DNA from: a virus
Direction: 5' to 3' (one strand)
DNA: 21,438 nucleotides
IMG/VR virus record: IMGVR_UViG_3300042549_001930
Span: 1-21,438 of that record
The position numbers and the translations under genes were made by a program. The notes below the pieces were generated by a model, which saw nothing but the letters and a program-made list of their open reading frames with translations, was not told the DNA's origin and made no database searches. How positions within the stretch are numbered: position 1 is the stretch's first letter; each line of letters begins with the position of its first letter. Below are positions 749-18,141 of this stretch, piece after piece.

Positions 749-3700
749 CTATTCTGCTTTCTGAATGTTACGTTGTTTTTCGGATAGTTTTCTGAGTTGT
801 TCAAGCTTACCAAAAGCCACACCATCTTTTTGTTTTTGTGTAACAGTCTGGACTGGTACACCTAAGTAACTGTTGATACCTTTGTCTCCGACACGCTGTG
901 CTTGTCCAATAGGTGGTATTATCTGTGTCAAAGCACGAACAAACTTTGATGGGGCGACAGGGTCTCCCGCTTGATTATAACTAAGTTGACCAGTGGCTTG
1001 CAAGAACGGAGCTAACAAAAGAGTAGCACCCGAAAGTTTCTCCTGCTTATCAGTCATAGGTTTGCCTGTGTATAGGTCTTGATTAAACATTGTTTCCAAA
1101 GGAACACGAATACCAGGGTTCAAGTACCCAAGAAGTCTTTTAGGGTCAGTCAGTGAGTCAATTTGATCGTTCACTCTGCTGAACGGCAAATCGGGGTTAA
1201 GGAATTTATCTCCACCAAGACTAATAGCGTTACGCATGTAAGCAGGCATGACAGACATGTCCTCACCCTCTTGAGAGTTCGAAACCATACGCTGATACAT
1301 TAGATACGGCTTGGGGTTAGCCCAGCGGTTAGTAATCTGCAAAGGCAAGTTGCGGCTCATCCATGTCCAGAATGGAACAATGTCTTGCATTGATTCATCC
1401 AGCAACGACTTCTCTGAATAATCAAACAAGTAACGCTTTGTTCTGTTGAACGACTGGCTAGGGTCAAAACCCTTTACAAAAGAATCGTAAGCCAGCATGA
1501 AATGAGCAGAGCCTTCAAGCTTGCCACCAATTTTCTTTGAATAGTTAAGAGCAGCGTTAGAGTTAATTCTAGCGTTGCCTCTAGCCATGAAACTGCTTAG
1601 AGCATCTTGCGTTCTACCGCCACCCATGCCAAGCATCACGCCAATACTGTTTCGTGCAATTTCTTTTTGGGCATCTGGCAAAGTTGCAATAAACGAATCA
1701 ACACTTCCACCACCAGAAAAATGAGTGTCAGCCATACGCCACAACTTAAACCCATCATACATGTTCTTAACATCCGCACCAGCAGCAAACATAGAAAACA
1801 CGTTGCTTATCTCGTTACGCAAATGGAAACCAGGGCTAAGAGTAGCATACGCCTTAAAGAACTGAGTGTATCCGCTCATAAACCTACCAAGGTCATTAAC
1901 AACACCAAGTTGGTTTAATCGCCCAACGCTATTAAGAAGGGTAAGTGCTTCACTGTCACCAACAAGATTGGGGAATCCCTTTTTGTCTATGCGCTTCATG
2001 TCTTTGTATAAGCCCATCTCTTTGGCGGCCTTTTCCCACTCTTTAGAGAACGGTTCAAACACTCTAGTTGTCCATTCAGGTGCACTAGCACCTGCAATGG
2101 CAAGCAACTCACCAGCATGAGTCAATTCTAAATCAATCAACTGCGAATCAGCCATAGCCGCAGCAGCCCATGCCTTGTTAACAGGATCATCAGGTGATTC
2201 AGAAAGCATTTCAAACACACGCTTGTTATCTTTCAACCATTTGTTGTAAGATTCAATTGCTGCAGCCTGCTGAGCAGGAGTAACCTTGCGTCCACCTTTA
2301 GCAGTAGACATGGACTTAAATACATCCATTGTGTCCTTGGCTGGCATTGAAGCAACCAACATGTTAACTTCATCAAGTTGTTGCTGCAAAGAAGCAGCCA
2401 ACTGACGACCATCGTTCAATGCTTCCATAAACTGGTCAACACCACCAGAGGTTACTTCAATCTTGATACGCACTTCTTCAGCCGCACCACTAACCGCTTT
2501 GATAATATCCTCAACAGCCGCTCTTTGTGTGCGCTTATTTTCCAAAGCAGTCTTAACTGTTTTCATAGTTTCATCTCTCAAAGATGGTAGCGTCTTACGA
2601 CCAGTAGCAGGATCAACACGCTTTTCAGTCCACAAAAGACGAGCTTCCTCAGCATCATCAGCCTGAATCTTTCCGAAACCAACGTTGTATCTGTTTTCAG
2701 CCTGAACAGCCTGAGCAGCAGACAACCTAGTATTAGGTGTAGTACCAGGCTCTACAAAAGTACCACCAGGAGCAGACTGTGCAGTAATAGCCTGACCAAA
2801 CTCATCAACAGCAGCAGGTGACGTTGGCAATTCCAACGGAACACCATCAGGACCAACAGGTCCAGCACCTCTAAGTGCTTGCAAACTATCACTAGCAGCC
2901 TGTGCGTCGGCTAGAATTTCTTGCTCAAGTCTAGCAACATTGGTAGGACCAGACAAAGCACCCCTAGCAATTTCAAGTTCTTTAGCAAGTTCATTAGCAT
3001 AGTTTTGCATCGATTCAGCAGAAGCTCTAGTGTTTTTATGCAAAGCAACAACAACATCATTCTCCATCTCGGCAAGTTCCTGAAGATGCTTATACTCTGG
3101 AGTTGATTTAAAAGCCCTATCTAGGTTTGCTCTACGCATCTCAAGATCACGTCCACCAACCTTGTAGCCCTTGTCTAGACGCTCAGACACAGACTTGGGG
3201 GTGCTACGAGCGTTAACTCCCAAAGCAGTTAGTTCGTCCATCTCTTTAAGACCGTCACGACGTGCAACATCAACAAGAGTAGGATGCGTGTTGTCAACCC
3301 AGCGACCAACGCCAACTTCATCAAAAACAGCACCAGCACGCTTGGAACCATTAACAAGAATACTCATCTTCTTTAAAGCAGAAGCTTGAACCTTTGGGTC
3401 CAATGCTCTTTTAGACACCTCAAGAGGTACAAGGTCGGCGTTCAAGCCAGCAACTCTTGCATTGATTCTATCAATTTCATTGTTGAACTTTACAAATGCT
3501 TGTTGGTAAATGTCTCCATCAACAGCAGACACAGACATAGCAAAACCAGATCTACGCTGACCAGATGGCATTCTACGACGAACCGCATCAAAAGCAGCGC
3601 CAGCTGCTTTGTATTGCTGTTCAAGAAGTTTCTTCTCTTGTAGTATTTCACGAATAGAATCATTAACGTTTTCGGAAGTAACAGAAGATCTTACCGAACC

Positions 3701-6700
3701 ACCAACATACAAAGACTCTGCTTCTTCGGGAGTGAAAACAACTTTAGTTCCATTGTCAAATGCAGCATACTCTCCATCAACAGTTTTAAAACCATCAGTA
3801 AAAGTAGAAAGATCATATGCAGCAACATCATTCATGACTTGTACAAGTCTTTCATCACCCTTAGCCTTAGCAGTCATAACACTGTTCGCCTTTTTGTTGT
3901 ATGTGTCAATAATCTTCTTGGCTTGTTCAGCATAAGGAGCAGAAGGGCGTCCAGGGCGTGCAGTCTGACCAGTTATAGGGTTGGCTGCTTTCATTGTTGG
4001 TTCAGCCTTAACCAAATCAACAAACTTGGACTCATTAGGAGTCAACGCAGGAACATTGGCTCTAGCTTTCTGTACCGTGTCAAGCTGCTTCTGAGCAGAC
4101 TTGACTGCAGGAGTTAAACGCTCAATACGGGTAGACTCTGTGTTTGTTAAAGGGCGCTTTCCTTTTTTGCCAGAAGAAACCCAGACTTCTTGTTTTGCAG
4201 CAATAGAATCTTGAACCTCTGCAAGCTTTGCAGTTACATCATCCAGTTTTGATTGAGCAGCAGCAACTGCCTTGTCAGCAGTTTCAATGGCTTTAATCTT
4301 TGGCTCCACAGCCTTGACCTTAGCAAGGAAGTTTGCAGGAACGGCTTTACCCTTGGACAACAGATCAGCTTCTGTTTGAAGAACAGTAGCAGATTCTCTC
4401 GCAGATACAGCATCACGAGTACGCAAAGCAAAGTTATCTGCTTCTGTTTGTGCTTCTTTAGTAGCTGCCTGCCAACGCTCTGAAGTGTGCTGCATAATAC
4501 GCACCTTCATGCTAGGACGAGTCTGTGGTGCGCCTGGGTCACGAAGGAAAGTTTCCATATCCAAATCTTCATCCAACATCTGACCATAACGAGCTTTAGA
4601 TTCTTTCAATGCTTTAATTTTTGTCTGCAAAGTATTCTCTCCACCAACAACTTTAACCATCGATCCACTACCAGACTCGCCAACATACCCGACAGGGGTG
4701 GCGCTTCTTCCTTTAATAGTTGAAGCACCCAAATGCTTTTCAAAGAACGATTTGACAATAGCAGCATCAGCTTCTTCAGCGAACGGAGTCATGTACGTAG
4801 ACTTGGCTCCCTTTCTTTGAACAGGTGCAAGCTCTTTAAGAGCAGCAGTCTTGTCGCCCTTGTAGTTTCTTCCTTCAGGGAAAGCCTGTGTATACCATGG
4901 ATCTACTTTTTCTTTGTAGAAATCATTTTCTAGTTTAGTTATTTCTGAACGAGTTGCACCAGCCTTACGTGCCCTGCCCTTGATTGCTTTTAGTTCCATG
5001 CGGAGACTATAGGCGTCTCCACTTGCTACAGACTTGTTTCCTAAAGCAACTTGGATTGTTTCACGCTCGGCAGAACTCAGTTTGTCCCATTGGTCTTGAA
5101 AAACACGACCAGCAGATACAGAAAGGTCTGGGTTGTTAATAATATCGGAAACAGCCCTTTCAAACTTTTCAAGATTCAAAACACCAATACGTGTAGAAGT
5201 CAAGTTGCTATCAATAATATCAATAAACTTTTGTGAAACATTCTTACTGATACGAGTGAACACTCTTTCACTAGGTGCAATACCAAACGTAGAGAATATT
5301 TCGCTTACAGTATTCCAACGTTTTCCAAGGTCGGAAACAATATGGTAGTCAAACAAAGCACGACCAAGTTCCTCGTTTGTATGTGCAACACTTTGGAACC
5401 ATTCAGGTCGTGTTAAAGAACCACCACTAGTGATTTCTTTAATAGTGTTAAGTGCATCGTCAAGTTCACGGGCAGCAGACAAAGACTCTGTTCCAGATGT
5501 TTTTGCTGCTCTAAGTTGTTTAACCTTTGCACGAGCAGCGGTTAATTTAGCGTCAATTTCAAGAAGCGACTTTGCCGAATATGTCTTTCGTCCAACACCA
5601 GCACCAGTAGCAAAAAACTCTGGTCTATCGTAAGCCTCTTTAGCTAAAGCAGAATATCTATCTATTTCACCCATCAAGTCATTATACGTAATGACGTTAC
5701 TTCCACGAGGTCTTGCGCCAGTAGACTGCGAGAAGTCTCTAACCGCCATAGACTCCACAACATCTTCTCCTGGTTTAAACTCTGGAGTAACATCCAGTCC
5801 TTTATCTCCAGACCAAGGAGCATAACCAGCAGCACCATCGACAGTTTTACCACCAGAAACATTATCGTAATAACCCATCAAGTCTTTAATTGCTTCTTCA
5901 TTTAAGTACGCAACATCATTGTCTGGAATAAACTGAGACAACCAAGGCTTAGACCTTGCATGTGATTCAAACAAACCCCAAGAAATTTCCGTGTCTCCAA
6001 GATTACGAAGAAGATCAGTGTTTCTCATAAGGTTGACAAACTCATCCATTTGATCAATGTTCTCACGCAGCAACTTTGCTTCAGCAATCTTTGGCTTGGT
6101 TTGTGTTTTCCAAATACTACCAGAGTTCTTACGGGCACCACCACCAGCATCTTTAGCTATTTCCGCAGCAATAACTTCAGCCTCGTCCGCTTCCTGCAAG
6201 TTTTTAAGAAGCTTATCCCTAACCGCTACAAGAAACTCTGGAACATTTTCTCCATAGATACGCTCATCATTTAACAAAGTATAGATAGACATACTACGAA
6301 CTTCACTAGAAGAAAGCTCGCCAGTAAAAACCTTTGGAAGATTGTTATTAAACAGGTTGTCATTCATTTTAGACACAGAAGTCTTATTTAATTTTGTGTT
6401 TTTAGTAAGGCGCTGGAAAAGACCACCCTCTTTATTAATTAAATTACGCAAAGCAGTTTGACGAACACGTTCTGCCTTTTCAGCATTCTTAACACCAGCA
6501 GCAGTCTTGTCTACAATACTAGAAACAGCAGTATCAGTAAGCATTCCCTTTTCGCCTATAATACCAAGAATATCTGTGATGTCTCTAGCGTATGTCTGTC
6601 CAGAAATAACACCCTCAAGAACGCTTTCAAGTTGGTTACCAAACTCTAAAACAATTTTAACGTTTTCTTCAGAAGCGGCCAAACGCTCCAAAGCAAGTTT

Positions 6701-8842
6701 ATGTGCAGCATCAGTCTTGTCGGCAATACTTTTAAGTTCAATACCTGTAAGGTCTTTACCTAAAACAGTCGCTTGTCTTTCAAGATCCAAGAAGTCATCC
6801 TGGATGCTATCCAGATGACCAAGTATACCATTTAACAAATACGTAGACTCAGTAGCCTCACGACCCGTATCTTTAAGAACAAGCTTTCCCCCTTTTGTAT
6901 ATGCGTATCCAAACAAATCAACCAAGGTCTTTTTACTTTTATCAAGAGCATTAGCAGCCAACCCAAGTTGGTCTGCACTAATAGTTAAACCACCAGTAAG
7001 GATGTCATTCAAAGCAGCTTCTGTGTCCAAAAGAATCTCTCTTGAACCAACAGCACCAGTGTCACCCAGTAGTTCTTTAATTTCACCACTAAGTTTTGCT
7101 TGGTGTGCAACCAGTGCGTCGTTGAAAGTTAAATAAGCTTTTGAAGATTGCTTATACAAAGCGTTCAAATCACCAGCGATAGAACCAGCAGACTTTTTAA
7201 TGGACTCAAGCATGATCTCGTCAACAAATTCGCCACTCATGTCTATAGCTGCAGCACGTTCCCAAAAACCAGCATCAGCAAGGTGCTTGTGTTTAAACAA
7301 GATACCAGACTCTTTAACAAACTCGTCAACATACCTAGGTGCAACAATGCGGATATCTGTTTCAAAGAAATCACCAATGAAACCACCATCTTTGGCAAGT
7401 TGATTAAGTCTGTCTGTGCTCTTCAAATCATCAACAGTTAACTTGTGACCAAACCAGTTGTCACCCTCTGTCATTGTACGAGTCTTAAAGTTCTTACCAC
7501 CAGCCATAGGGTCCCTGGAATAAATACTATTAAGGTCAGCAGCATGAGGACTGTTGGGGTTAGCACGATAAGCCATTGCAGCGTCTGATTGTATTCTAGG
7601 GAAATAGTTTGTAACGCCATCAAACCCAGGAGAAGTAGGGTCAACTTCTTTCATCGCTGCACCAACACGTGCCTCGTAAGAATCAAAGAATTCTGGTCCC
7701 CACTTTTGTACAGCAGCTTGAATTTCTGGAGTAGCAGTAGCCAACAACTCAGGATTCTCAAGATACTTATAAACTTCCTTAGCGTAACCTTCAAGACCCG
7801 CACCAGCTTCAGTCTCTAAAGTTTTAGCCAACACTTGACGTTCGCTCTGCGCAAGCGTACCCATAAACTGTTTCATAGCTGGAGTAGCAGAAAAATAAGC
7901 AATCAATGCAGTGCTTGTATCTGTGGACAAAGGCTTTCCACTGGCAGTAGCTCCTTTAAGCAAAGCTGTACGGGCAACAAGATGCTCGTTAGGTAAAGTC
8001 CACTTACGAACAAATTCACCCATCTTAGTTTCTGAACCCATCATGCGCATCTTAGCCATAGCGTTATCGCCAAACGCACCTATAGCACCACTGCCTGGGA
8101 TACGCAAACCCATTCTTTCACCGCTAGCAGCATTTAGTTTACCAACTTTAATACGCTTACCTAGCATATACAAACCATGGTTATTAGCACCAAGGTCAGT
8201 AAGTAGGTTTTGATCTTTAATAGCAGCACGACCGAAACGAGCGACAGAAGCAGCAAGAGCTTCGTCGCCGTTGTGCGCAAGAACAGCTTTAGCCAAATCA
8301 AGCTTACCAGCATATCCAGCAAACTTGCCAGCACCAAAAGTTACATAAGTAATAGGGTCAAGAGCAACGTCACCAGCAAAACCAATAGCTCTATCCAGCC
8401 ATTTAGAACCAGTGTCAATATTGAAAGCAGTACCAAAACCAAAAGAAACATCTTTTGCTTGCTTCTTGAAATCACCAAAGGAAGCTTTAGTTTTGTTGTT
8501 ACCATCTACGGCATCACCAAACTCACGCAAACCAGAAATAACAGTACGACCTGGCAAAGCCAAAAGACTAAGAGGTTTAAGAACACCCTGCACCACAGAG
8601 TTACCAAGAACACTACCAAGGACACCACCCTGTGGAGACTTGGAAGTTTTGCCCTGACCAATAGCGTCAATAGCGCTCTTCAAATCAAAGTTAGTTGACA
8701 TCATATTAGACGCCTGACGCCCATAAGCCACACCAGTAGCACTAGTGGTCTTGTTTACTGGGGTGAACCCAGGTTGTGTTTGCTTCTGTTCACGCATGGC
8801 CTTAGCCATTGCGTAACGCTGGTCATTATAAGGATTAGCCAT
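749..8842 (-). CDS. Giant internal virion (ejection) protein, 2697 residues
   Basis: This single uninterrupted frame is probably a virion protein ejected with the DNA, in the place of T7 gp16. The N-terminus is Met/Gln-rich and followed by a Gly/Leu/Val-rich stretch around residues 73-106. A segment with N-Y-F-P-R-I lies near residue 410. Long Ala/Lys/Glu/Gln helical or coiled-coil stretches occur near 550-600, 1510-1555 and 1960-1990. The region from about 2300 to the end is the most domain-like. It includes FDYSEKSLLDES followed by IVPFWTWMSRNLPLQ near 2475-2500, resembling the C-terminal part of large phage polyvalent or internal proteins. I see no lysozyme or transglycosylase signature and no recognisable RNA polymerase motifs, so no enzymatic role is assigned. 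The start has no clear Shine-Dalgarno sequence (CTTACAGTAT before ATG). It follows three smaller ejection-type genes and precedes the endolysin. Confidence 0.8.
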   Translation of the reverse strand: MANPYNDQRYAMAKAMREQKQTQPGFTPVNKTTSATGVAYGRQASNMMSTNFDLKSAIDAIGQGKTSKSPQGGVLGSVLGNSVVQGVLKPLSLLALPGRTVISGLREFGDAVDGNNKTKASFGDFKKQAKDVSFGFGTAFNIDTGSKWLDRAIGFAGDVALDPITYVTFGAGKFAGYAGKLDLAKAVLAHNGDEALAASVARFGRAAIKDQNLLTDLGANNHGLYMLGKRIKVGKLNAASGERMGLRIPGSGAIGAFGDNAMAKMRMMGSETKMGEFVRKWTLPNEHLVARTALLKGATASGKPLSTDTSTALIAYFSATPAMKQFMGTLAQSERQVLAKTLETEAGAGLEGYAKEVYKYLENPELLATATPEIQAAVQKWGPEFFDSYEARVGAAMKEVDPTSPGFDGVTNYFPRIQSDAAMAYRANPNSPHAADLNSIYSRDPMAGGKNFKTRTMTEGDNWFGHKLTVDDLKSTDRLNQLAKDGGFIGDFFETDIRIVAPRYVDEFVKESGILFKHKHLADAGFWERAAAIDMSGEFVDEIMLESIKKSAGSIAGDLNALYKQSSKAYLTFNDALVAHQAKLSGEIKELLGDTGAVGSREILLDTEAALNDILTGGLTISADQLGLAANALDKSKKTLVDLFGYAYTKGGKLVLKDTGREATESTYLLNGILGHLDSIQDDFLDLERQATVLGKDLTGIELKSIADKTDAAHKLALERLAASEENVKIVLEFGNQLESVLEGVISGQTYARDITDILGIIGEKGMLTDTAVSSIVDKTAAGVKNAEKAERVRQTALRNLINKEGGLFQRLTKNTKLNKTSVSKMNDNLFNNNLPKVFTGELSSSEVRSMSIYTLLNDERIYGENVPEFLVAVRDKLLKNLQEADEAEVIAAEIAKDAGGGARKNSGSIWKTQTKPKIAEAKLLRENIDQMDEFVNLMRNTDLLRNLGDTEISWGLFESHARSKPWLSQFIPDNDVAYLNEEAIKDLMGYYDNVSGGKTVDGAAGYAPWSGDKGLDVTPEFKPGEDVVESMAVRDFSQSTGARPRGSNVITYNDLMGEIDRYSALAKEAYDRPEFFATGAGVGRKTYSAKSLLEIDAKLTAARAKVKQLRAAKTSGTESLSAARELDDALNTIKEITSGGSLTRPEWFQSVAHTNEELGRALFDYHIVSDLGKRWNTVSEIFSTFGIAPSERVFTRISKNVSQKFIDIIDSNLTSTRIGVLNLEKFERAVSDIINNPDLSVSAGRVFQDQWDKLSSAERETIQVALGNKSVASGDAYSLRMELKAIKGRARKAGATRSEITKLENDFYKEKVDPWYTQAFPEGRNYKGDKTAALKELAPVQRKGAKSTYMTPFAEEADAAIVKSFFEKHLGASTIKGRSATPVGYVGESGSGSMVKVVGGENTLQTKIKALKESKARYGQMLDEDLDMETFLRDPGAPQTRPSMKVRIMQHTSERWQAATKEAQTEADNFALRTRDAVSARESATVLQTEADLLSKGKAVPANFLAKVKAVEPKIKAIETADKAVAAAQSKLDDVTAKLAEVQDSIAAKQEVWVSSGKKGKRPLTNTESTRIERLTPAVKSAQKQLDTVQKARANVPALTPNESKFVDLVKAEPTMKAANPITGQTARPGRPSAPYAEQAKKIIDTYNKKANSVMTAKAKGDERLVQVMNDVAAYDLSTFTDGFKTVDGEYAAFDNGTKVVFTPEEAESLYVGGSVRSSVTSENVNDSIREILQEKKLLEQQYKAAGAAFDAVRRRMPSGQRRSGFAMSVSAVDGDIYQQAFVKFNNEIDRINARVAGLNADLVPLEVSKRALDPKVQASALKKMSILVNGSKRAGAVFDEVGVGRWVDNTHPTLVDVARRDGLKEMDELTALGVNARSTPKSVSERLDKGYKVGGRDLEMRRANLDRAFKSTPEYKHLQELAEMENDVVVALHKNTRASAESMQNYANELAKELEIARGALSGPTNVARLEQEILADAQAASDSLQALRGAGPVGPDGVPLELPTSPAAVDEFGQAITAQSAPGGTFVEPGTTPNTRLSAAQAVQAENRYNVGFGKIQADDAEEARLLWTEKRVDPATGRKTLPSLRDETMKTVKTALENKRTQRAAVEDIIKAVSGAAEEVRIKIEVTSGGVDQFMEALNDGRQLAASLQQQLDEVNMLVASMPAKDTMDVFKSMSTAKGGRKVTPAQQAAAIESYNKWLKDNKRVFEMLSESPDDPVNKAWAAAAMADSQLIDLELTHAGELLAIAGASAPEWTTRVFEPFSKEWEKAAKEMGLYKDMKRIDKKGFPNLVGDSEALTLLNSVGRLNQLGVVNDLGRFMSGYTQFFKAYATLSPGFHLRNEISNVFSMFAAGADVKNMYDGFKLWRMADTHFSGGGSVDSFIATLPDAQKEIARNSIGVMLGMGGGRTQDALSSFMARGNARINSNAALNYSKKIGGKLEGSAHFMLAYDSFVKGFDPSQSFNRTKRYLFDYSEKSLLDESMQDIVPFWTWMSRNLPLQITNRWANPKPYLMYQRMVSNSQEGEDMSVMPAYMRNAISLGGDKFLNPDLPFSRVNDQIDSLTDPKRLLGYLNPGIRVPLETMFNQDLYTGKPMTDKQEKLSGATLLLAPFLQATGQLSYNQAGDPVAPSKFVRALTQIIPPIGQAQRVGDKGINSYLGVPVQTVTQKQKDGVAFGKLEQLRKLSEKQRNIQKAE

Positions 8843-8860: not shown

Positions 8861-9913
8861 TTACTTAGACGAAGCAATGAACTTCATGATCATTTTCATG
8901 GCGTCAGTAGTGGGAGTAGCCCCACTCTGCCTAGCATAATCCATTTGACCCTCACGGACAGCCTGCTCACGCTGCTTGGCAGCATTAGCACTTCCTTCCA
9001 TGTCTAGCATTGCTTGCATGGCGTCATCATATTTTTTGTTAGCAGCCTTATTGTAGCCAACCCCACGAGATGACCCAGCTTTTTTAGTAATGTTTTTAAC
9101 AGCCTTACCAAACCCTTTAGCATCTCCTCCACGATTATTTGAATACTTCAAAGAATCAGAACCAGACTTATCCAAAACACCAGTTAAATCAGATACAGAT
9201 ATATCATCAACAGGGTTATTTTTAAAGTAAGAACGAGCACGATTCAACCCAAGAGCACCTCGTCCTTTTGAACTTTCCTCATCAAACCATTTTAAAACAT
9301 CAGCAGTCTTTATGCGCTTGCCCTCTTCAGTGGCGGAACTACCTCGTCCCAAACCTTCTCTAGCAGCATTAACTTTGTATTGTGCATCTCCATAACCTTT
9401 AACTTTAGGTACCAAATCTTCTTGAAGTTTCCTAATGTACTGCTCATTAATTGACGAAAGAGGAACAGTAGAAGTGTTGTACAGCTCCGTAGGGTCAGGT
9501 ATACCAGCTTTTTGAGTTGCGGTCTTATTTTTAGAACTAGAAGAACCAGTGCTAGTTCCAGTGTATTCTTTATACAACTCGCCAGCGACACCCTTTAAAT
9601 CAGCAACCTGAAAACCACCCAAATCTATACCTGGCGCAGCAATAGAATCAATATAACTACTAATTTGAAACTTATCTGCACCACTAGTTATCTTGGAAAT
9701 AACATCCTGAATAATAGGATTTTCAGACTGCGAATACCTAGACCAGTAACTACCAGCACTAGGACCAGACTGCTCAGCAGTACGTGGATCATAAGCACCC
9801 GCCATTATAGCAAGCAACTGACTGTCCATGTTGTTTAAAACACCACTAAGGTTTTTGTTTCCACCTCTAGCAGCAGCCATAAACGCCATCATCTGCATCT
9901 CTTGATCGGTCAT
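8861..9913 (-). CDS. Putative internal virion protein, 350 residues
   Basis: I do not recognise a named family. The protein begins MTDQEMQMMAFMAAARGG, with a helical, Met/Ala-rich N-terminus. It has a low-complexity Thr/Ser/Lys linker near residues 117-132 (TGTSTGSSSSKNKTATQK), a central charged region and a Lys/Ala/Gln-rich helical C-terminus ending in FIASSK. No signal peptide, catalytic motif or Cys cluster is visible. Its ATG overlaps the stop of the upstream gene as TAATG, so translation is probably coupled. It lies between two other internal-protein candidates and the giant gene, in the region corresponding to T7 gp14-gp16. A role as a core or ejection protein is inferred from that position and composition; a scaffold-like or tail-assembly function is also possible. 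Confidence 0.65.
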   Translation of the reverse strand: MTDQEMQMMAFMAAARGGNKNLSGVLNNMDSQLLAIMAGAYDPRTAEQSGPSAGSYWSRYSQSENPIIQDVISKITSGADKFQISSYIDSIAAPGIDLGGFQVADLKGVAGELYKEYTGTSTGSSSSKNKTATQKAGIPDPTELYNTSTVPLSSINEQYIRKLQEDLVPKVKGYGDAQYKVNAAREGLGRGSSATEEGKRIKTADVLKWFDEESSKGRGALGLNRARSYFKNNPVDDISVSDLTGVLDKSGSDSLKYSNNRGGDAKGFGKAVKNITKKAGSSRGVGYNKAANKKYDDAMQAMLDMEGSANAAKQREQAVREGQMDYARQSGATPTTDAMKMIMKFIASSK

Positions 9914-11019
9914 TAGAACAACTTACCTTTCTTCGGAACTCCACCCTTGGCCATAGCAGCAAGCATCTGTTTAATCAAATCATTCTGTTGACCAGTTTTA
10001 TTCTGTGCAACACTCTGCGTGCCCTGCAACAACCCCTGATTATAAGTCTGCTTATTCTGTGAATAATTCTGGTTAACATTAGAAGTATCTCCAAGCAAAC
10101 CCTTAGAAATATCAAAAGTATTCTGATCGTAAGCCTGACCCATCTTCAACTTATCAGCAAGCAAACCCTGGGTTAATTGATTACCATAAGCCTGGTTGTT
10201 ACTAGCAAGTTGACGAGTAGAAGCATCACGCTGCACAGCAACATCAGCCAAAGCACCCTGCTGATTAGCACCAGAAATACTACGCAAAATACCAGCAAGA
10301 TTATTAAACGCACCAGCAGAACCAGCATTCTGAGCATTCAAAACCTGAGCATAATCCTGTGTCTGCTGATCACCAACATTTTGCCCCTGCAAAAATGATG
10401 ACAACTGCGCAGTAGGAGTAACAGCCTCAGCTTGCAAATTAGCATAAGGATTAGCTTGTCCTTTCAGCATGGCTTCTAAACTGTCCATAGAAGAATTAAT
10501 AGTTTTACCAGCCTCAGTATTTAAACCAGCAAGACTAGTACGTGCAGTATCATATCCAGTTTGCAGATTAGTCAAACCCTGTGTGTTTCTAGTGTTTAAA
10601 TTTGTTTGCGCATTGCCATACAAAGAGTTCAAACCAGACAACTGAGCATCACGATCAGTTGTCAAATCAGCCTGTGCACCACCATACATACCCTCAAGTT
10701 GAGACTGCAACTGATCATAAGGTTTACCATAAGAACCACCAGTAAGCAAAGACTGAAGTTGCTGGGTGTAATCATTCAAAACATTACGACCGCCACCACC
10801 GCCACCAGCAGTAGCAGCAGCAGCAGCCTTTGCAGCATCAGTACGAATTTTAGTTAATTCAGACTGTCCAACCAACCTAGAAGTAGCTTTATCTTCAAAT
10901 TTTTTGTTTGTCACACGACTAGTAGGACCAACATCAGCAGAAGCAACCGTTGTTGCCTTACCCTTGTTTTTCTTGTTGGCATCTATAGCCGCTTGACGTT
11001 TGTTTTTTTCTTTTGCCAT
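9913..11019 (-). CDS. Putative internal virion protein with 22-residue helical repeats, 368 residues
   Basis: I place the start at 11019 (MAKEKNKRQ) because AGGAG lies at 11027-11031, seven bases upstream. An in-frame ATG at 11046 would sit inside the previous gene. Residues 1-60 are very basic and contain PTSRVTNKK (32-40) and TSRL (46-49). Residues 63-77 form an Ala-rich stretch followed by six Gly, a likely hinge. Three tandem 22-residue units follow at 111-132, 133-154 and 155-176, each beginning near a Y-G/D-x-A motif. Related units occur at 296-317 and 318-339, with a shortened copy at 277-295. Gln and Asn are abundant and the end is basic (PKKGKLF). Such 11/22-residue periodicity suggests long amphipathic helices. 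The family is unknown to me. The location before the other ejection-type genes suggests an internal virion protein that may contact membrane or DNA. Confidence 0.65.
   Translation of the reverse strand: MAKEKNKRQAAIDANKKNKGKATTVASADVGPTSRVTNKKFEDKATSRLVGQSELTKIRTDAAKAAAAATAGGGGGGRNVLNDYTQQLQSLLTGGSYGKPYDQLQSQLEGMYGGAQADLTTDRDAQLSGLNSLYGNAQTNLNTRNTQGLTNLQTGYDTARTSLAGLNTEAGKTINSSMDSLEAMLKGQANPYANLQAEAVTPTAQLSSFLQGQNVGDQQTQDYAQVLNAQNAGSAGAFNNLAGILRSISGANQQGALADVAVQRDASTRQLASNNQAYGNQLTQGLLADKLKMGQAYDQNTFDISKGLLGDTSNVNQNYSQNKQTYNQGLLQGTQSVAQNKTGQQNDLIKQMLAAMAKGGVPKKGKLF
10003..10191 (-). repeat. Second block of related 22-residue coding repeats
   Basis: Residues 277-339 of the same protein contain one 19-residue and two 22-residue units. 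They begin AYGNQ, AYDQN and NYSQN and carry QGLL or KGLL at a similar place. They resemble the first block in length and in their leading aromatic residue but are richer in Asn and Gln. Confidence 0.5.
10492..10689 (-). repeat. Three tandem 66-base (22-residue) coding repeats
   Basis: These encode residues 111-176 of the 368-residue internal protein. The units begin MYGGAQADL, LYGNAQTNL and GYDTARTSL, share hydrophobic spacing and end with L-N/Q-S/T or I-N-S. They are diverged at the DNA level, so they are old repeats held by protein structure rather than a recent expansion. Confidence 0.6.
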
Positions 11020-11021
11020 GA

Positions 11022-11471
11022 CTATGCTCCTAAAAACGGTTTCCAAGCAGTCAAAGACGCTGCTGTATTTGCAATATTACTTTGTTTCTCAAAATCCAAA
11101 GCTTCCAACTCAGACTGGTAAGCAGCCTGGTCATAAGCATCACCAAGTTTAGACTGTTGAATTTCACCAGCAGTATCCATCTCGCTATTGTTTATCGACT
11201 CGGTTTTCTGATTAGCAAAATCAGTTAAACCCTTTTTATAGACACCAGACTGAACACCAGGACCAGCCAAGCCACGCTTAGTAAAACTACCAACAACCCC
11301 AGGGGCTGCCTGTTCAAACTGTTTGTTAATATCAAACACCTTGCGGTTGCCACGCTGTTGAGATAGAAACTGACTATAGGCAGATTGGGCTGCTTTGGCG
11401 CCATACTGGCTGCCAGCTGCCCGCTTACGCTTGCCATACCCTAGGTAGTCAAAATTACTTGTGTCGCTCAT
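11022..11471 (-). CDS. Putative internal virion protein, 149 residues
   Basis: I do not recognise a family. The protein begins MSDTSNFDYLGYGKRKRAAG and has a basic, Ala/Gln/Tyr-rich helical first half with a QYGAKAAQSAYSQFLSQQRG segment. A Gly/Pro-containing middle (APGVVGSFTKRGLAGPGVQSG) is followed by an acidic helical C-terminus ending in WKPFLGA. The start at 11471 has AGAGGA at 11477-11482. The stop lies two bases before the next gene's ATG, and that gene's ribosome site sits inside this gene's last codons. The size and first place in the block of internal proteins recall T7 gp14, a small membrane-associated ejection protein, but this is an analogy of position and not of sequence. Confidence 0.65.
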   Translation of the reverse strand: MSDTSNFDYLGYGKRKRAAGSQYGAKAAQSAYSQFLSQQRGNRKVFDINKQFEQAAPGVVGSFTKRGLAGPGVQSGVYKKGLTDFANQKTESINNSEMDTAGEIQQSKLGDAYDQAAYQSELEALDFEKQSNIANTAASLTAWKPFLGA

Positions 11472-11510: not shown

Positions 11511-12305
11511 TTATGCAGGTCCTATATCTTCTACGCTAAATTTCCATGCAATAGGGTCACGGACTGCAGCGCCGTAATAATAAACACCCATTGCTGATGA
11601 GTTGTGTCTGAGTTTTCTTGTCACAGAACCAGACGAAGCAAATGTTTCAACATAATCAAGAAAACCAGTTTGATAGTTAACTCCACCAGCAACAGCAAAA
11701 TAAGTAAAATATTCACGAATAACATTATTGCTAGAATCAGTTATATGAGTACTCATAGGTCCAACGCCATCATTAACAATCAAACCAGTTGCAAAATAAC
11801 GATAACGGCGACCTGCAACAGCAGTAAAAGTTACACTAATAAGGTCTGTGGTTGGGGTTATATATCCAGTTCCTGCAGCAAGTGTTGCTAGCGTTACAAG
11901 CCCCCAAGCCGTATTCCAGGGGCGTGAAGCCATCGTTGCAATCTGAGTTGTATTAGTACCAGCAGAAGCAGTAGGTGCTGTAGGTGTACCAGTCAATGCA
12001 GGTGAAGCAATATTGGCTTTCAAGTTTAAAGCAGTCTGTTGCGCAGTGGAAACAGGCTTGGCTGTGTCTGCAGTGTTGTCGACAGACCCAAGACCAACCA
12101 TTGATTTGGTTATTCCGCTAACCGTTCCCGTAAAAGTAGGGTTGTTAGCTGACACATAGTTCACCACCCAAGCAGAACCATTCCAAACATATTCAACGTC
12201 CGTATCAGTCTCGTAGATGTGTTGACCTTCGTACGGGGCTGTAGGGCGTGTTGTTGATGTGCATACACCTGGGCGTATACCGCTTGCGTTGTTACTAATA
12301 GCCAT
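11511..12305 (-). CDS. Tail fibre / receptor-binding protein, paralogue of the next upstream gene
   Basis: This 264-residue protein is a probable adhesin. Residues 13-49 (GVCTSTTRPTAPYEGQHIYE followed by TDTDVEYVWNGSAWV) match the N-terminal region of its neighbour and probably form the attachment domain. Residues 70-97 contain VGLGSVDNTADTAKPVSTAQ, a shaft motif widespread in phage fibres. Residues 99-134 repeat the neighbour's shaft almost exactly (ASPALTGTPTAPTASAGTNT and onward to AWG). The tip (about 135-258) differs strongly but keeps V-x-F-T-A-V-x-G-R near 158-166. The end is SVEDIGPA. The gene overlaps the upstream paralogue by TAATG at 12305. Tandem duplication followed by divergence of the tip would give a phage two binding specificities; which surface molecule is bound cannot be read from sequence. 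Confidence 0.75.
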   Translation of the reverse strand: MAISNNASGIRPGVCTSTTRPTAPYEGQHIYETDTDVEYVWNGSAWVVNYVSANNPTFTGTVSGITKSMVGLGSVDNTADTAKPVSTAQQTALNLKANIASPALTGTPTAPTASAGTNTTQIATMASRPWNTAWGLVTLATLAAGTGYITPTTDLISVTFTAVAGRRYRYFATGLIVNDGVGPMSTHITDSSNNVIREYFTYFAVAGGVNYQTGFLDYVETFASSGSVTRKLRHNSSAMGVYYYGAAVRDPIAWKFSVEDIGPA

Positions 12306-13072
12306 TATGCAGGCCCTACATCTTCAACCATTAAAGCGTTCGCATAGCCACCAGTATCAGCATAAACTTGACCAGTGCCAGCACCCATTGCACATTGAAC
12401 ACTGATTGTTGTGGAACCACTCGCTCCGCTAAAGTAGGTGAACAATGTTGGAGAGTGCCATAGATTGATGGTTGGTGACATATAATAATCTGCTCCCTGT
12501 ATTCTTGTAGAACCATTGTAAATGGCACAGTTAATATATGTTGCACTACTTGCACTTTGAAGGTATAACTCTGTTGTCACTTTATACATTCTCCCTGACA
12601 CCGCTGTGAAGTTTACAGAAAAAACCGTAACAGGAGGGCTATTAACTATGCTTGTTACGGTCGTTTTTTTAACATATCCAACCTGACCCCAAGCAACATT
12701 CCATGGTCGTGAAGCCATAGTTGCTATCTGTGTTGTGTTTGTACCAGCAGAAGCAGTAGGTGCCGTAGGCGTACCACTTAATGCTGGAGATGCCAATTTT
12801 GCGTAACCTTGACCCACAACATAAGCAGTAGTGGCAACCTGTGTTGTATTTGTGTCAACTGCAGCCGTAGGAGCAGCAGGTACACCAGTAAAAGTAGGTG
12901 ACGCAGACGATGCATAGTTATTAACCCAAGCAGAACCATTCCAAACAAACTGCAAGTTTGTATCTGTCTCGTATATATGTTGGCCTGCGTATGGTGAAGC
13001 TGGGCGTGTACTGCTTGTGCATACACCCCACTTGATCATTGACGATGCACCTATTTGCTGTGAAATACCCAT
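12305..13072 (-). CDS. Tail fibre / receptor-binding protein, first of two tandem paralogues
   Basis: This 255-residue protein shares its N-terminal domain (residues 16-50, with PYAGQHIYETDTN and VWNGSAWV) and shaft with the downstream gene. It has two shaft units typical of phage fibres, at about 57-85 (SPTFTGVPAAPTAAVDTNTT) and 95-122 (SPALSGTPTAPTASAGTNTT). The tip begins after AWG at 129 and contains VNFTAVSGRMYKV near 153-165. The C-terminus is MVEDVGPA, nearly the same as in the paralogue. The start lies two bases after the stop of the collar gene. By my hand alignment the shared shaft DNA of the two genes differs at about 17 of 107 positions, so the duplication is not very recent. An inverted repeat lies at the start of the tip region. 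Confidence 0.75.
   Translation of the reverse strand: MGISQQIGASSMIKWGVCTSSTRPASPYAGQHIYETDTNLQFVWNGSAWVNNYASSASPTFTGVPAAPTAAVDTNTTQVATTAYVVGQGYAKLASPALSGTPTAPTASAGTNTTQIATMASRPWNVAWGQVGYVKKTTVTSIVNSPPVTVFSVNFTAVSGRMYKVTTELYLQSASSATYINCAIYNGSTRIQGADYYMSPTINLWHSPTLFTYFSGASGSTTISVQCAMGAGTGQVYADTGGYANALMVEDVGPA
12624..12661. repeat. Inverted repeat with flanking T-tracts inside a fibre gene
   Basis: ACCGTAACA at 12624-12632 pairs perfectly with TGTTACGGT at 12653-12661 across a 20-base loop. On the plus strand it is followed by CG and seven T (12664-12670). On the minus strand the second arm runs directly into a T-tract (TTTTTT, counting the arm's last base). It therefore resembles a bidirectional terminator, although it lies inside the fibre gene at about residues 138-150. 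Confidence 0.55.
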
Positions 13073-13074
13073 GA

Positions 13075-13761
13075 TTATTGCGCCTTGATGATGTAGTTAA
13101 GAACCATTGTAGGTTGCATGTTGTCGTGTGCTGAAGCTGCGTTAGCAGCCGTGTTGAGCTGATTGCTCATAGTTACAGAACCTGCAACAGTACCAGCAGG
13201 TGTAATGGATGTGGTTTGGTTTGTTGCGGTATTAGCCTCTACATACCCACCGCCAATACCGTAAGGACTAGAGTATGAAGGAACATTCATGTTTAGTCCA
13301 ACACCTTGAGAACCTCCCCATCTAACAGTAAAATCATGAGCGTGAGCATTTTGTGTATGTGTATGACTTGCAGCAGTACCAGTAAATGAACCACTAAATG
13401 AAGCGGTGTTTGCATGAGAGTGAGCAGGCAAACCAGACTGTGCAGAAGTTAAAGTTACTGTTTCTGTACCAGTAGTTGTACCGAGAGTATTGGCAATACT
13501 TAAACGACCAGCATCCGTACCACCCATATTGTCGACACCCGCAACAGCACGACCACGCATATCAGGAATATTAAAAGTAGTAGACCCATCACCAACACCA
13601 TAAGTGGTGCTTAGGGTGTTGAACAAGGCAGGATATTGAATACGGCTAACTTCCTGTCCGTAGCACAGCAACCACCCAGCAGGTGCGTTAGCACCAGCAA
13701 AAGGGTTTACAACCCCAACAGGAACAGCACCAGCAGCACTCAGAACAGCAGAAATACCCAT
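13075..13761 (-). CDS. Tail collar domain protein (T4 gp12-like short fibre)
   Basis: This 228-residue protein carries a clear phage tail-collar domain at about residues 15-75. It includes APAGWLLCYGQEVSR, YPALFNTLSTTYGVGDGSTT and FNIPDMRGR. The second half has His-rich metal-site motifs (LPAHSH; SHTHTQNAHAHDF near 132-145) and the usual end NMQPTMVLNYIIKA. In T4 gp12 and related short tail fibres, such domains form trimers whose His pairs hold metal ions and which bind host surface sugars. The gene overlaps the stop of its upstream neighbour by TAATG at 13761. It sits among fibre genes, which supports a baseplate or fibre-tip role. The exact receptor is unknown. Confidence 0.85.
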   Translation of the reverse strand: MGISAVLSAAGAVPVGVVNPFAGANAPAGWLLCYGQEVSRIQYPALFNTLSTTYGVGDGSTTFNIPDMRGRAVAGVDNMGGTDAGRLSIANTLGTTTGTETVTLTSAQSGLPAHSHANTASFSGSFTGTAASHTHTQNAHAHDFTVRWGGSQGVGLNMNVPSYSSPYGIGGGYVEANTATNQTTSITPAGTVAGSVTMSNQLNTAANAASAHDNMQPTMVLNYIIKAQ

Positions 13762-14108
13762 TACAGTGTTTTATTCCATCCAACAACAGTAATGTTCACA
13801 GAACTACCAGCGTCTGAGTAGCCCCAAAGTCTGTCGCCAGCATTCAAAACCATCGCAGTATCCAAAACAATAGTGTCATTGCCACCAATAGGTAAAGCAT
13901 GAATAAAACGGCTAGATGTTCCACCCGTAACTGTAGTGCCAATACCCAAATATACTAGCCTGTCTATCGATGCTGTGTTGCACAAGATGACTTGTTTAAT
14001 AACCCATGCATTACCTGCAGGAACGACAGCAGCACCAAGTGCTGCGTCTGTTGCTGTCAACGTTGTTGGGTCAACTAGTCGTGTTTCTACTCTGTCGCCA
14101 CTTGCCAT
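13761..14108 (-). CDS. Small beta-rich tail/fibre accessory protein, 115 residues
   Basis: I do not recognise a named family. The sequence is rich in Val, Thr, Gly and Leu with alternating strand patterns (WVIKQVILCNTAS, LVYLGIGTTVTGG, IVLDTAMVLNAGDRLWGYSD, NITVVGW) and looks like a small beta-sandwich. The pattern of an NTAS segment, a GGTSSRF turn, and an L-N-A-G-D-x-L-W segment near the end is common in small phage virion proteins encoded beside fibres. It begins two bases after the preceding fibre gene ends (stop and start run together as TAATATG) and its stop overlaps the collar gene. A role as a fibre decoration or adhesin-tip subunit is inferred from context only. Confidence 0.6.
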   Translation of the reverse strand: MASGDRVETRLVDPTTLTATDAALGAAVVPAGNAWVIKQVILCNTASIDRLVYLGIGTTVTGGTSSRFIHALPIGGNDTIVLDTAMVLNAGDRLWGYSDAGSSVNITVVGWNKTL

Positions 14109-14109
14109 A

Positions 14110-15243
14110 TTAAACTCCTACATCCATTAAAATAATTGCACTAAACTTAGAATCATTCATTGGATCAGTAGAAATGATCTGATTAGCCCACTGTGTACCC
14201 GTATAAACCAAAGCTTGCCCACTACTAGGAGTGGTAATCGTTACGTCCGTAAGGTCATCTAATGTTGTGGCAGGGTTGTTTGTTATCCACTGTGTATTGT
14301 AGTTTGTGCCGTCAATCTTGGAAAGAATCTGACCTGCAGTACCACCAGTAGCAACACCAGCCCCAACCGCTCCTGTAGCACCTGTAGTACCAGTAACACC
14401 CTGAATACCCTGTGGACCAGTAGCACCAGTAGGACCAGTAGGTCCAGGAACAGTAGAAGCAGCACCCGTAGCACCAGTCGCACCCGTAGCCCCCGTAGCG
14501 CCCGTAGGAATAACAAAATCAAACACTGCAGCACCAGACGTGCCTGTATTAGTGACAGTAGCAGAAGTACCAACAGCACCCGTAGAAGTGGTACCAGCTG
14601 CAATAGTTGCAGCGGCACCTGTAGCACCCGTGTTTCCTGTGATACCCTGGATACCCTGTGGTCCTTGAGGACCTGTTGCTCCAGTAGCCCCAGTGGCTCC
14701 TGTAGCCCCCGTAGCGCCCGTAGCGCCTACGGGTATGGTAAAGTTAAAGGTAGCGGCACTTGACGTCCCTACGTTCGTTACAGCAGCACTAGTGCCAACT
14801 GCGCCTGTTGTTGTTGTACCAGCAGCAATTGTCGCTGCAGTACCAGTAGCACCAGTAATTCCTTGTGGAACTGTAAAGTTAAATACAGCAGCCGCAGATG
14901 TGCCAGAGTTGGTTACTGTAGCTGAACTACCCGCTGCTCCTGTCGTAGTAGTCCCAGCAGACACGGTGGCAGCCGTACCTGTGGCACCAGTAGCACCTGT
15001 AGGACCTGTCGCTCCTATTGGACCAACTGGTCCTTGAATACCTTGTATACCTTGAGATCCCGTTGCGCCTGTTGCGCCTTGAATACCTGAAGAGTAGGAT
15101 AATGCGCTCCATGTGTTTACTCCGTTACCAATCTTAAACTTACCAGTATCGTATTCATATCCTGGTTCACCTTGTGCAAGGATGGGGTTGGCAGCAGTCC
15201 ATTGTGCTGCGGTTCCTCTACGATGTTGAACTACTACAGCCAT
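14110..15243 (-). CDS. Large collagen-like tail fibre with Mtd-type N-terminal domain
   Basis: This is a 377-residue fibre. Residues 5-50 (VQHRRGTAAQWTAANPILAQ, then GEPGYEYDTGKFKIGNG) match the N-terminal domain of major tropism determinant proteins, used to anchor receptor-binding trimers. Collagen-like Gly-x-x runs follow at 53-88, 173-209 and 247-293. Three 45-residue beta units interrupt them at 90-134, 135-179 and 210-254, each with a G-T-T-x-T-G-A-x-G turn and F-x-F-x-x-P. The C-terminus contains a GQILSKIDGTNYNTQWI segment and LDDLTDV, standard fibre elements, and ends ILMDVGV. No lectin-like variable domain or associated reverse transcriptase is visible, so there is no sign of a diversity-generating retroelement here. 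The gene overlaps its upstream neighbour by TAATG. Confidence 0.8.
   Translation of the reverse strand: MAVVVQHRRGTAAQWTAANPILAQGEPGYEYDTGKFKIGNGVNTWSALSYSSGIQGATGATGSQGIQGIQGPVGPIGATGPTGATGATGTAATVSAGTTTTGAAGSSATVTNSGTSAAAVFNFTVPQGITGATGTAATIAAGTTTTGAVGTSAAVTNVGTSSAATFNFTIPVGATGATGATGATGATGATGPQGPQGIQGITGNTGATGAAATIAAGTTSTGAVGTSATVTNTGTSGAAVFDFVIPTGATGATGATGATGAASTVPGPTGPTGATGPQGIQGVTGTTGATGAVGAGVATGGTAGQILSKIDGTNYNTQWITNNPATTLDDLTDVTITTPSSGQALVYTGTQWANQIISTDPMNDSKFSAIILMDVGV
14482..14976 (-). repeat. Three 135-base beta-unit repeats with collagen spacer
   Basis: Units at 14976-14842, 14841-14707 and 14616-14482 each encode 45 residues beginning TAAT or AAAT and ending GATG. The first two are directly abutting; the third follows a 30-residue Gly-x-x spacer. 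An exact stretch beginning GTAGCCCCCGTAGCGCCCGT occurs twice on the plus strand, near 14488 and 14703, which could promote unequal recombination. Confidence 0.7.
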
Positions 15244-15625
15244 TATGCATACCCCGCATCAACTAGTGGTGTTCCACCATAAATAGAATCTGGATGTCCA
15301 CCATCCAGGTTTAAAGAAGAAAAACCATTAGGACCAGCAGGACCTGTTGGACCTGCGGGTCCAGTAAGACCAGTAGGTAGCGTCAGGCTTAATGTTTGGC
15401 TTGGAAATGTGCCTGTTATTGTTGCTCCAGCTGTTCCTGCAGATACAGACCCGATACCCAGGTTGTAGTAGTTTGCATTTATGCTTGTTTGTACTCCAGC
15501 TAGATAATCTTTTAATGATGTAAAAACATGTTGTAGGGTGCGGGCATCACTGGAACGTAGTTGTCCCAGTAGTGGTGCGGTCCATCCTTGTATTGGTGGA
15601 TTATCTCTTGGTGTTTCTGTAGCCA

Positions 15626-15626
<1 letters not shown>
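15243..15626 (-). CDS. Short collagen-like fibre-associated protein, 127 residues
   Basis: The N-terminus (METHR-free start MATETPRDNPPIQGWTAPLL) leads into a helical region (residues 24-50, with SSDARTLQHVFTSLKDYL). A beta segment follows, then a brief collagen-like stretch GPAGPTGPAGPNG near 89-101. The C-terminus is distinctive: L-N-L-D-G-G-H-P-D-S-I-Y-G-G-T-P, then LVDAGYA. This Gly/Asp-rich ending recurs, in my general knowledge, at the ends of small phage proteins, but I cannot name a characterised function. Both ends overlap neighbours through TAATG. It may be a fibre linker or adaptor between the S74 fibre and the large collagen fibre. Its D-A-G ending resembles those of three other proteins in this cluster. 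Confidence 0.65.
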
Positions 15627-16515
<889 letters not shown>

Positions 16516-16516
<1 letters not shown>

Positions 16517-18141
16517 TATGCTTTAACCTTTCTAGGATTATACTTTAATGTGAAGCTATTGACACCCCACGTTTGTGCTGGCGAACCAACAAATTCTAAC
16601 TGTACAGACTTTGCAAGCCCAACACTTCGACCATTAACAACCTGGGATCCAGGGTTCGCAGCACCCCAAGTAGCAGAACCCCAAAGAGAATAACCCCACA
16701 ACATACTACCACCAGACGCTGGAATATCAATAACGTACTGTTTCATTTCGCCATCTTCAGCTTCTTCATAGTTGCCATAAACAAAAACATTCAACTGTGA
16801 AGCAGAAGGTGTTTGCTTAACAACCAAACTAGGACGTCTAAACATTTTATTTTGAGCATACGAACCAGCATCAAACCAGCGAGTACGATAACGACTAGTG
16901 AACTGATTATCTGTACCAGTAACATTGTCCAAAGCATTGCCGTAGTTGTCTACGGTCAATGTGTACGGCTGTGTAGGGTGAGCAACAACATGTTTAGTTG
17001 TGCCGTCTGTCTGTGTGAAAGTTAAACCAGCAGAAATACCACAACCATCGTAAGAAGAAAACATTAGCCAAGCACCAGATTTGTTTACTGTATTATCATA
17101 TACAAAAGAAACGGTCGGCGTGGTTGCGCTTGTTGTTTCACTGTATGGAACAGAAACCCAAACACGACGATTAACATAGTTAACGTTAATGGCGTTAGTT
17201 GCTGCAGAGTTAACATAACCATTAACTAAAGCGGGACGCAAAGGTTGAAACAAGTCAACAATACCATTACCATTGTAAAGCATTAAACCATCAGGGTGTG
17301 AATAGAAATAAACACCAGATTCTGTAGTTGCAACAGAACCAGGATTTACGGCACCAACAGAACGAGAAACTTCAACAACTTGAAAAGTGTCTGAATCGTA
17401 ACCAAAGATAGCAAACACTGCGTCCTCTTTGAAAACAACAATATGACCAGAGAAAACAGCAAGAGCTGTAATTCCTACAGATCCAGTATTAATATCGATG
17501 TAGTCATCAGCGGCCCAGTTACCAGGAAGGTTGGGGTGTGACCATCTGATACGGTTGGGGTATGCTACGCCGTTTTCGTTTGTGTTAGCAGCAAAGATTT
17601 TACCTGCATGAGTAACAACGTGATTAGCTTTGGGAAAGAACACTGCAGGCAAAGTAGGGGCAGTATAAGAGTTTTGAAACGTAGGACCAGAAGCTGTCAA
17701 AGCAGTCTTGGTGGTTCCATCCCACTTGTAAGACACACTACCAGGTCCAGTAGAAATATAAAGATCCTCACCCCAAGAAGCAAAAGAAGCACCAAAAGAA
17801 GTAGTCACAGGAATAGCAAGACTTGCATAAGAAGAACAGTTGCTAGACCAAAACACGTCACCATTAGTTCCACCACCAGCAGAAGAATAAGCAGTAGACA
17901 ACATCAACCTATGTGTAGAAGCAAAAAACGAATACAAACCAGCAGGGTTCCAGTTAGTAGGGGTAATAGCAGTAGTGTTAGTACGGCGCATAGCGCCACG
18001 ACTAAAAATACCACCACGAGGATCAATCTCGACATTAAGCATTTTAGGTGACTCGTTAGGAGCCAACTGAAACTGGTCAGCACGAAGATTCAACCCACCA
18101 GTGAAATCGTCCTGACGAAGAACTCTAAGATTAGTAGCCAT
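16516..18141 (-). CDS. Tail nozzle / tail tubular protein B-like
   Basis: This 541-residue protein probably forms the distal tail tube of a short-tailed virion. The N-terminus ([20 protein letters not shown], then [18 protein letters not shown]) is the usual opening of nozzle and stabilisation proteins. The body consists of repeated beta-strand segments with [24 protein letters not shown] and [11 protein letters not shown], consistent with a beta-propeller. The C-terminal part contains [13 protein letters not shown], where other nozzles also read the sample range of residues for tube contacts. T7 gp12 is longer, so this is a compact version. It overlaps the adaptor gene upstream by TAATG, the same gene pairing as T7 genes 11 and 12. 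The fibre genes follow at once. Confidence 0.8.

Follow-up and report, generated by a model that had tools for sequence, protein, structure and literature searches.

The window, a virus record of 21,438 bases, carries on its minus strand, in order, genes for a scaffolding protein, a major capsid protein (MCP), a head-tail adaptor and a nozzle-like protein, a collagen- or fibre-like region, three ORFs of 149, 368 and 350 aa, a giant gene, and an M15-peptidase-like gene. The positions of these genes, and of the segments that we distinguish within the giant protein, are listed in Table 1.

Table 1. Features of the window, with positions counted from its first base
Feature	Position	Strand	Basis
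M15-peptidase-like gene, probable lysis gene	307-747	minus	STHSFGAALD ... WIHVE in translation; immediately downstream of the giant
Giant protein, putatively ejection-type, whole gene, 2697 aa	749-8842	minus	open frame, ATG to TAG
Conserved C-terminal domain, residues 2290-2697 (PGFHxRN, VPFWTxMSRNLPLQ)	752-1975	minus	alignment; AlphaFold2; BFVD Foldseek
Hypervariable helical/coiled-coil middle, residues ~561-2280	2003-7162	minus	low occupancy and identity in family alignment; AlphaFold2
Conserved N-terminal module, residues 60-560	7163-8665	minus	family alignments; hhalign to gp16 ~330-680, 82% / 73.5%
Residues 310-427, ending near NYFP motif	7562-7915	minus	aligned to T7 gp16 555-679, hhalign 82.0%, score 46.4
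GFAGDVALDPITYVTF motif, residues 154-169	8336-8383	minus	aligned to T7 gp16 331-345, hhalign 73.5%, score 41.4
350-aa Cys-free ORF, probable internal/ejection protein	8861-9913	minus	directly upstream of the giant; position Cys-free in 84/87 loci
368-aa Cys-free ORF, probable internal/ejection protein	9913-11019	minus	position Cys-free in 83/85 loci
149-aa Cys-free ORF, near-constant length across family	11022-11471	minus	position: median 145 aa, Cys-free in 67/78 loci
Nozzle-like virion protein	16516-18141	minus	phrog_3287, E 9.8e-17
Head-tail adaptor (SU10 type)	18141-18839	minus	PF24175, E 7.3e-21
Major capsid protein	19614-20576	minus	phrog_9953, E 3.8e-75
Scaffolding protein (Cys-free)	20601-21380	minus	phrog_3927, E 5.5e-14

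The giant frame is uninterrupted, and its ATG is backed by homologues that open with the same MANPYxDQRYAMA sequence. We found the frame intact in three near-identical IMG/VR contigs (2697, 2697 and 2699 aa; 95-99% identity). Comparison with L001, a 39.6 kb contig that is the nearest longer relative of the window, gave 454 synonymous versus 140 non-synonymous codon differences, and the frame is therefore a selected gene under purifying selection and not a chance frame. An earlier sequence-only reading had described a single intact 8.1 kb frame (naming no strand) at the end of an internal-protein block, with long helices, a better conserved C-terminal domain, and no visible wall-cutting domain or other lysozyme or RNA polymerase motif. 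These points were borne out: the frame lies on the minus strand with the three Cys-free ORFs directly upstream of it, alignment and AlphaFold2 agree on the helices and on the C-terminal domain, and searches of Pfam, PHROGs, NCBIfam and PDB sequences with the window protein returned chance-level matches or none, with neither a lysozyme nor an RNA polymerase among them. That reading had overlooked the N-terminal module, which is as characteristic as the C-terminal domain.

L001 adds to the genes of Table 1 a terminase, a P22/SU10-type portal, a DnaB-type helicase, a primase and a sigma-70 region 4 protein, and the gene set of the window and L001 taken together is that of a short-tailed phage. 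The labels "fibre-like" and "M15" are our own reading of the translations. The gene downstream of the giant had no Pfam match; it contains a motif of the H-x2-G-x-A-x-D type, which we take to be that of M15 peptidases, and this type of motif was present in the first two downstream ORFs in 30 of 61 loci, versus 2 of 332 upstream ORFs. None of the three ORF families upstream of the giant exceeded 3.3% in hhalign comparisons with known gp14/gp15 equivalents, which is no match, and the 149-aa ORF has conserved NAYxRFLSQQRGxR and RGLxGPGVxSG stretches without a known match.

Several other features of these surroundings may be recorded here. A single ORF of 1086 aa in the near-identical L001 (L042:12703-15963) corresponds in position to several short fibre-like ORFs at 11511-15243 of the window, and the receptor-binding region appears to have been replaced between these close relatives. 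Two adjacent ORFs of this region (11511-12305 and 12305-13072) begin with the same type of domain (GVCTSTTRP..PYxGQHIYETDT) and are apparently duplicated fibre or adaptor proteins, and proteins with long collagen-like repeats are encoded in the fibre region at 14110-16516. The nozzle-like protein also matches phrog_5107, named "amidase" (E 5.2e-9), and p52 of Mx8, which occupies the same position, is annotated "amidase" as well; this label may have spread through misannotation of a nozzle protein. Two adjoining genes of L001 (L043:15704-17871, minus strand) encode proteins with 12 and 17 cysteines, one of them class-II glutamine amidotransferase-like and the other amidoligase-like.

The giant belongs to a widespread protein family found in short-tailed phages. 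We assembled this family from a scan with the C-terminal domain (with 13 further distant relatives), a scan with the N-terminal motif (best 80 of 145) and two annotated records, and it comprises at least 59 distinct closed ORFs, that of the window included, with lengths of 351 to 3535 aa and a median of 2261 aa. The count includes the doubtful L132 (351 aa); clear members range from 1068 to 3535 aa. The window giant is 51st by length among the 59, and its size is therefore ordinary within its own family. Both ends of the window giant were matched in 54 of the 58 other closed ORFs (BLAST, E <=1e-3), three others matching at the C-terminus only and one at the N-terminus only. In the layout of the family, the N-terminal module and the C-terminal domain are conserved and flank a helical middle that is hypervariable. 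Scans of genome contigs found no relative with the C-terminal module and three MAG contigs with the N-terminal motif; the MAG contigs L131 and L132 were not accepted as secure members because the similarity spans only ~40 residues. Two annotated proteins from uncultured podoviruses of Manatee Spring, UOF82138.1 (MW202803.1; 1312 aa) and UOF81946.1 (MW202795.1; 1106 aa), share with the window giant its two end domains and its gene order, at well under its length. UOF82138.1 (L004:14313-18251) is named "chromosome segregation", which is likely a misnomer stemming from matches of its middle to SMC-like coiled coils (E ~3e-5).

In AlphaFold2 models, residues ~2317-2697 are mainly helical and mostly have pLDDT values of 80-98. 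A Foldseek search of BFVD with the C-side model gave 21 matches at E <=0.001, and several of the top matches bear the name "Large polyvalent protein associated domain-containing protein" (E 6.2e-29 to 3.3e-11); other matches carry LT_GEWL, zeta toxin and helicase names, and one is named LPD38 (E 1.8e-3). These Foldseek results come without aligned ranges, and it is presumably the C-terminal domain, rather than the rest of the model, that resembles large polyvalent proteins. The Pfam LPD38 family (PF18857) had no match in the scanned family members and none in 11 records at E 10, a threshold at which control genomes gave nothing either. Rows from VIA for the C-side model cover mainly the long helices of the middle and are hence uninformative on this domain.

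The middle is modelled mostly as long helices (the models omit residues 1201-1497), and it is here that relatives differ most. L067/L068 and L070 form a natural pair in which the entire central part of the giants has been exchanged. DNA identity between L068 (1440 aa) and L070 (1221 aa) is 94-96% on both flanks, with nothing alignable in between, and the exchanged region of L068 includes, from residue 712, a segment resembling ParB/sulfiredoxin that is absent from L070. PHROG ParB families matched one member of the set that holds L067, which is near-identical to L068, the assignment to L067 having been made by sequence reading and not by a second scan of that member. A phosphatase-like stretch was found in L020 (phrog_335, E 4.7e-15). 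Among the 50 family sequences scanned, these two lineages were the only ones with convincing enzyme-type domains, and no effector domain was recognised in the window giant by Pfam, PHROGs or other family searches. An undetected enzyme, which had been suggested earlier for the giant, was not found in the window copy, although in two lineages of relatives the middle of the giant contains a domain that can be recognised.

These observations bear on a reading of the giant as one of the polyvalent proteins described by Iyer et al. (2017, PMC5512222), that is, as mainly an effector delivery vehicle whose ends are handles for packaging or injection and not parts of a DNA channel. The giant resembles the polyvalent proteins of that paper in the predicted fold of its C-terminus, and its relatives resemble them in carrying inserted effector-type domains, as the ParB-like domain present in L067/L068 and missing from L070 and the phosphatase-like match in L020 indicate. 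Unlike them, the window copy has no recognised effector or MPTase domain and no sequence match to the Pfam LPD38 family, and the scarcity of enzyme-type domains across the family speaks in the same direction. Also, the gp16-like N-terminal module described below argues for a role in a channel, although both roles may coexist. We regard this polyvalent reading as possible, though somewhat doubtful.

At the other end of the protein, the N-terminal module is a remote homologue of the core of T7 gp16 (residues ~330-680), recognizable at the level of profiles only. Our gp16 profile covered T7 gp16 residues 300-720 and was built from T7 and ~80 IMG/VR homologues, to which at most six other, distant ones were added; it is shallow (Neff 3.3), holding the best 80 of 118 homologues, mostly close T7 relatives. 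Two stretches of the module matched this profile in hhalign (Table 1), pairing GFAGDVALDPITYVTF with GIIGAGVDPLSYVPM and NYFPR (NYxPH in the family) with TYVPHV of T7 gp16, and the matches are collinear, occurring in the same order in both proteins. The best of 60 column shuffles, which preserve the content of columns and not their order, scored 22.4 (0.8%), the reversed profile reached 0.1%, the C-terminal domain 0.2% and the three upstream families 0.1-0.2%; hhalign E-values in these comparisons refer to one template. With an earlier gp16 profile the matches fell at the same positions (53.7% and 23-38%), and again none of 60 shuffles exceeded 0.9%. A single T7 gp16 sequence reached just 5.7% against the module profile, and the link to gp16 therefore needs both profiles. 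No higher value was obtained with single sequences of T7 gp14, gp15 and gp16, P22 gp7, gp20 and gp16, SU10 gp19-24, or proteins of Mx8, BUCT555 and a Bradyrhizobium phage against the N- and C-terminal profiles. The only match to the module in family databases was phrog_36598, of unknown function, which was found in 2 of 15, 11 of 18 and 8 of 17 scanned members, the window protein not being among them; it sits at the GFxGDVALDPxTY motif in the members shown individually.

Structure prediction added little to this comparison. The AlphaFold2 model of residues 1-1200 has a mean pLDDT of 68.8, with values above 80 for most of residues 290-530, and Foldseek searches of the PDB with the N- and C-side models gave nothing at E 0.001. 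Among the 50 VIA matches listed, the only row within the globular part was 8vb2_A of the phiM1 ejectosome (residues 266-539; Z 6.5, rmsd 9.1, 210 residues), which falls below the helical noise level of the tool and may be taken as weak agreement with the sequence result, no more. An hmmsearch of the PDB with the N-terminal alignment returned coiled coils.

Could the likeness to gp16 have arisen because short motifs of helical proteins converged, the family being one of unrelated ejection proteins? The low identity to gp16 (~15%), the failure of the single-sequence comparison and the VIA score of only 6.5 would be in keeping with convergence. However, the two matches are separate and collinear, and each lies far above the shuffled, reversed and other-domain controls; convergence is in our estimation unlikely.

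T7 gp16 is the tetrameric internal virion protein D, and like the giant it is the largest protein and the last gene of an internal-protein cluster, is helical and Cys-free, and has the matching core. According to a 2022 review (PMC8954989), its residues 243-410 are a putative membrane region, and residues 411-1118, which have DNA-binding activity, are placed in the cytoplasm; the matched stretch of gp16 spans the border between the two. In the giant itself the best 19-residue hydropathy mean is 1.39 (residues 78-96), and no strong transmembrane segment stands out. The giant differs from T7 gp16 in being twice as long, in its large variable middle, in the actinobacterial hosts of some of its relatives, in a C-terminal domain for which hhalign found no match in gp16, and in lacking an N-terminal transglycosylase. 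No Pfam or PHROG match to such an enzyme was found in the window giant, and there is no room for one because the conserved module begins near residue 60. P22 gp16 has a gp16-like position and no cysteine, and according to PMC8954989 it likewise has no hydrolase domain; it differs from the giant in its length of 609 aa, and no sequence match between the two was found. With the transglycosylase present in T7 and absent in P22, the enzyme is not needed for the wider gp16 type.

A further property that the giant shares with known ejection proteins is the exclusion of cysteine, which does not occur among its 2697 residues. A single Cys, in the truncated L122, was present in 82 family sequences or fragments longer than 900 aa (170,383 aa in all), a set that includes fragments, duplicate contigs and the doubtful L131 and leaves out L001-L003. 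Other ORFs of >=250 aa at the same loci had 1004 Cys in 177,622 aa (0.565%); 173 of 451 such ORFs were also Cys-free, and 135 of the 173 lie within ~4.5 kb upstream of the giant on the same strand. Cysteine is likewise absent from T7 gp15 and gp16, P22 gp7, gp20 and gp16, N4 gp50, gp51 and gp52, and SU10 gp20-24, the last of which are described in PMC9509320 as present in the virion and gone after genome release. Exceptions of the ejection type are T7 gp14 with one Cys and N4 gp54 with three. Freedom from cysteine is not exclusive to ejection proteins, as it was also observed for scaffolds, the N4 major head protein and two other SU10 ORFs. We found no printed statement of Cys absence in ejection proteins in the open-access literature searched, and the word "cysteine" does not occur in the text of PMC12633501, PMC11784390 or PMC11440229. 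The lack of Cys would fit a protein that unfolds and then refolds in an oxidising compartment.

We found WhiB in 10 of 50 relatives' records, and it is also annotated in MW202795. As stated in PMC6802176, WhiB is restricted to the actinobacterial phylum and is used to call actinophages. The WhiB genes thus point to Actinobacteria, which are Gram-positive, as hosts for part of the family; WhiB was not found in the records of L001-L003, which represent the window's own lineage.

In the aggregate, these results favor the view that the giant is a gp16-type ejection protein of a short-tailed phage with a variable spacer or cargo region, a view that we consider probable. It is based on the homology of the N-terminal module to gp16 with no hydrolase before it, the last position in a Cys-free cluster, the conserved C-terminal domain and a hypervariable middle that close relatives have exchanged. 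The assignment to the ejection class, which had been proposed from the letters of the sequence, is thus upheld by gene position, by the remote link to the gp16 core and by a Cys exclusion held in common with known ejection proteins. The gene order behind MCP, adaptor and nozzle and the P22/SU10-type portal of L001 lend it further support. Weighing against it are the low identity to gp16 with a link that needs profiles on both sides, the structural match below the noise level and the empty Foldseek searches of the PDB, the want of a strong transmembrane segment, the Cys-free proteins outside the ejection class together with the cysteines of T7 gp14 and N4 gp54, and the upstream families' lack of a match to gp14/gp15. 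The suggestion that the missing wall-cutting domain implied a different way across the envelope gained no support: P22 gp16 is described without a hydrolase domain as well (PMC8954989), an M15-like peptidase gene follows the giant, and at least some members of the family belong to phages of Gram-positive Actinobacteria.

Two other readings fare worse. A structural protein of the tail or tape-measure kind, retained in the particle, would also be helical and large, one family member matches a tape measure PHROG (2.3e-5), and weak tape measure rows appear in Foldseek; but the gene set with adaptor and nozzle is that of a short tail, the N-terminal module is gp16-like, and the clear members vary in length, as given above, with no long-tail genes seen in their genomes, which makes this reading very improbable. 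That the giant is an N4-type early enzyme (virion RNA polymerase or another) that has diverged beyond recognition is hardly credible: N4 gp50 (3500 aa, 0 Cys) is comparably very large, Cys-free and last in the virion block, so that the likeness noted in the sequence-only reading holds for size and position, yet the giant has no polymerase domain or RNAP family match, hhalign of either end module against gp50 gave <=0.5% and thus no detectable similarity, the middle consists mostly of long helices in its modelled parts, and the sigma-70 region 4 protein of L001 is more in line with use of the host RNAP.

Most likely, then, the giant works like gp16. As an ejection protein of this type it would be packaged in the head together with the three smaller proteins encoded upstream, and would exit through portal and nozzle before the DNA, largely unfolded, to refold in the envelope. 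If gp16 is taken as a guide, the N-terminal module would provide that part of an entry channel which lies in the membrane and clamps the DNA. The helical middle would then be a spacer or carry cargo, and packaging or ejection would be the task of the C-terminal domain.

The giant may accordingly be described as a distant, much enlarged relative of T7 gp16 that is probably packed in the head and pushed into the host ahead of the DNA. The 2022 review (PMC8954989) sorts the known ejection proteins into T7, P22 and SP6 groups and describes them as common among podoviruses that infect Gram-negative hosts, phi29-like phages of Gram-positives having none. A gp16-related giant in a family with actinobacterial phages would extend ejection proteins to a different envelope, and would raise the question of what is spanned there. 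The shared core without a transglycosylase, together with a near-identical pair that differs in the whole middle, ParB-like segment included, makes the distinction between channel and optional cargo parts of gp16 testable, and Cys exclusion offers a simple and quantitative means of predicting the virion proteins that are ejected. Joining these strands, we put forward as plausible, and hold only tentatively, that short-tailed phages of Actinobacteria use an expanded, hydrolase-less gp16 whose swappable middle would deliver into the host enzymes peculiar to a lineage, such as a ParB-like nuclease or a phosphatase, and that a near-complete lack of Cys along thousands of residues is a general mark of proteins that have to pass the portal unfolded and fold again outside the cytoplasm. 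If this is true, the whole ejected set of a podovirus would be readable, through its exclusion of cysteine, from sequence alone.
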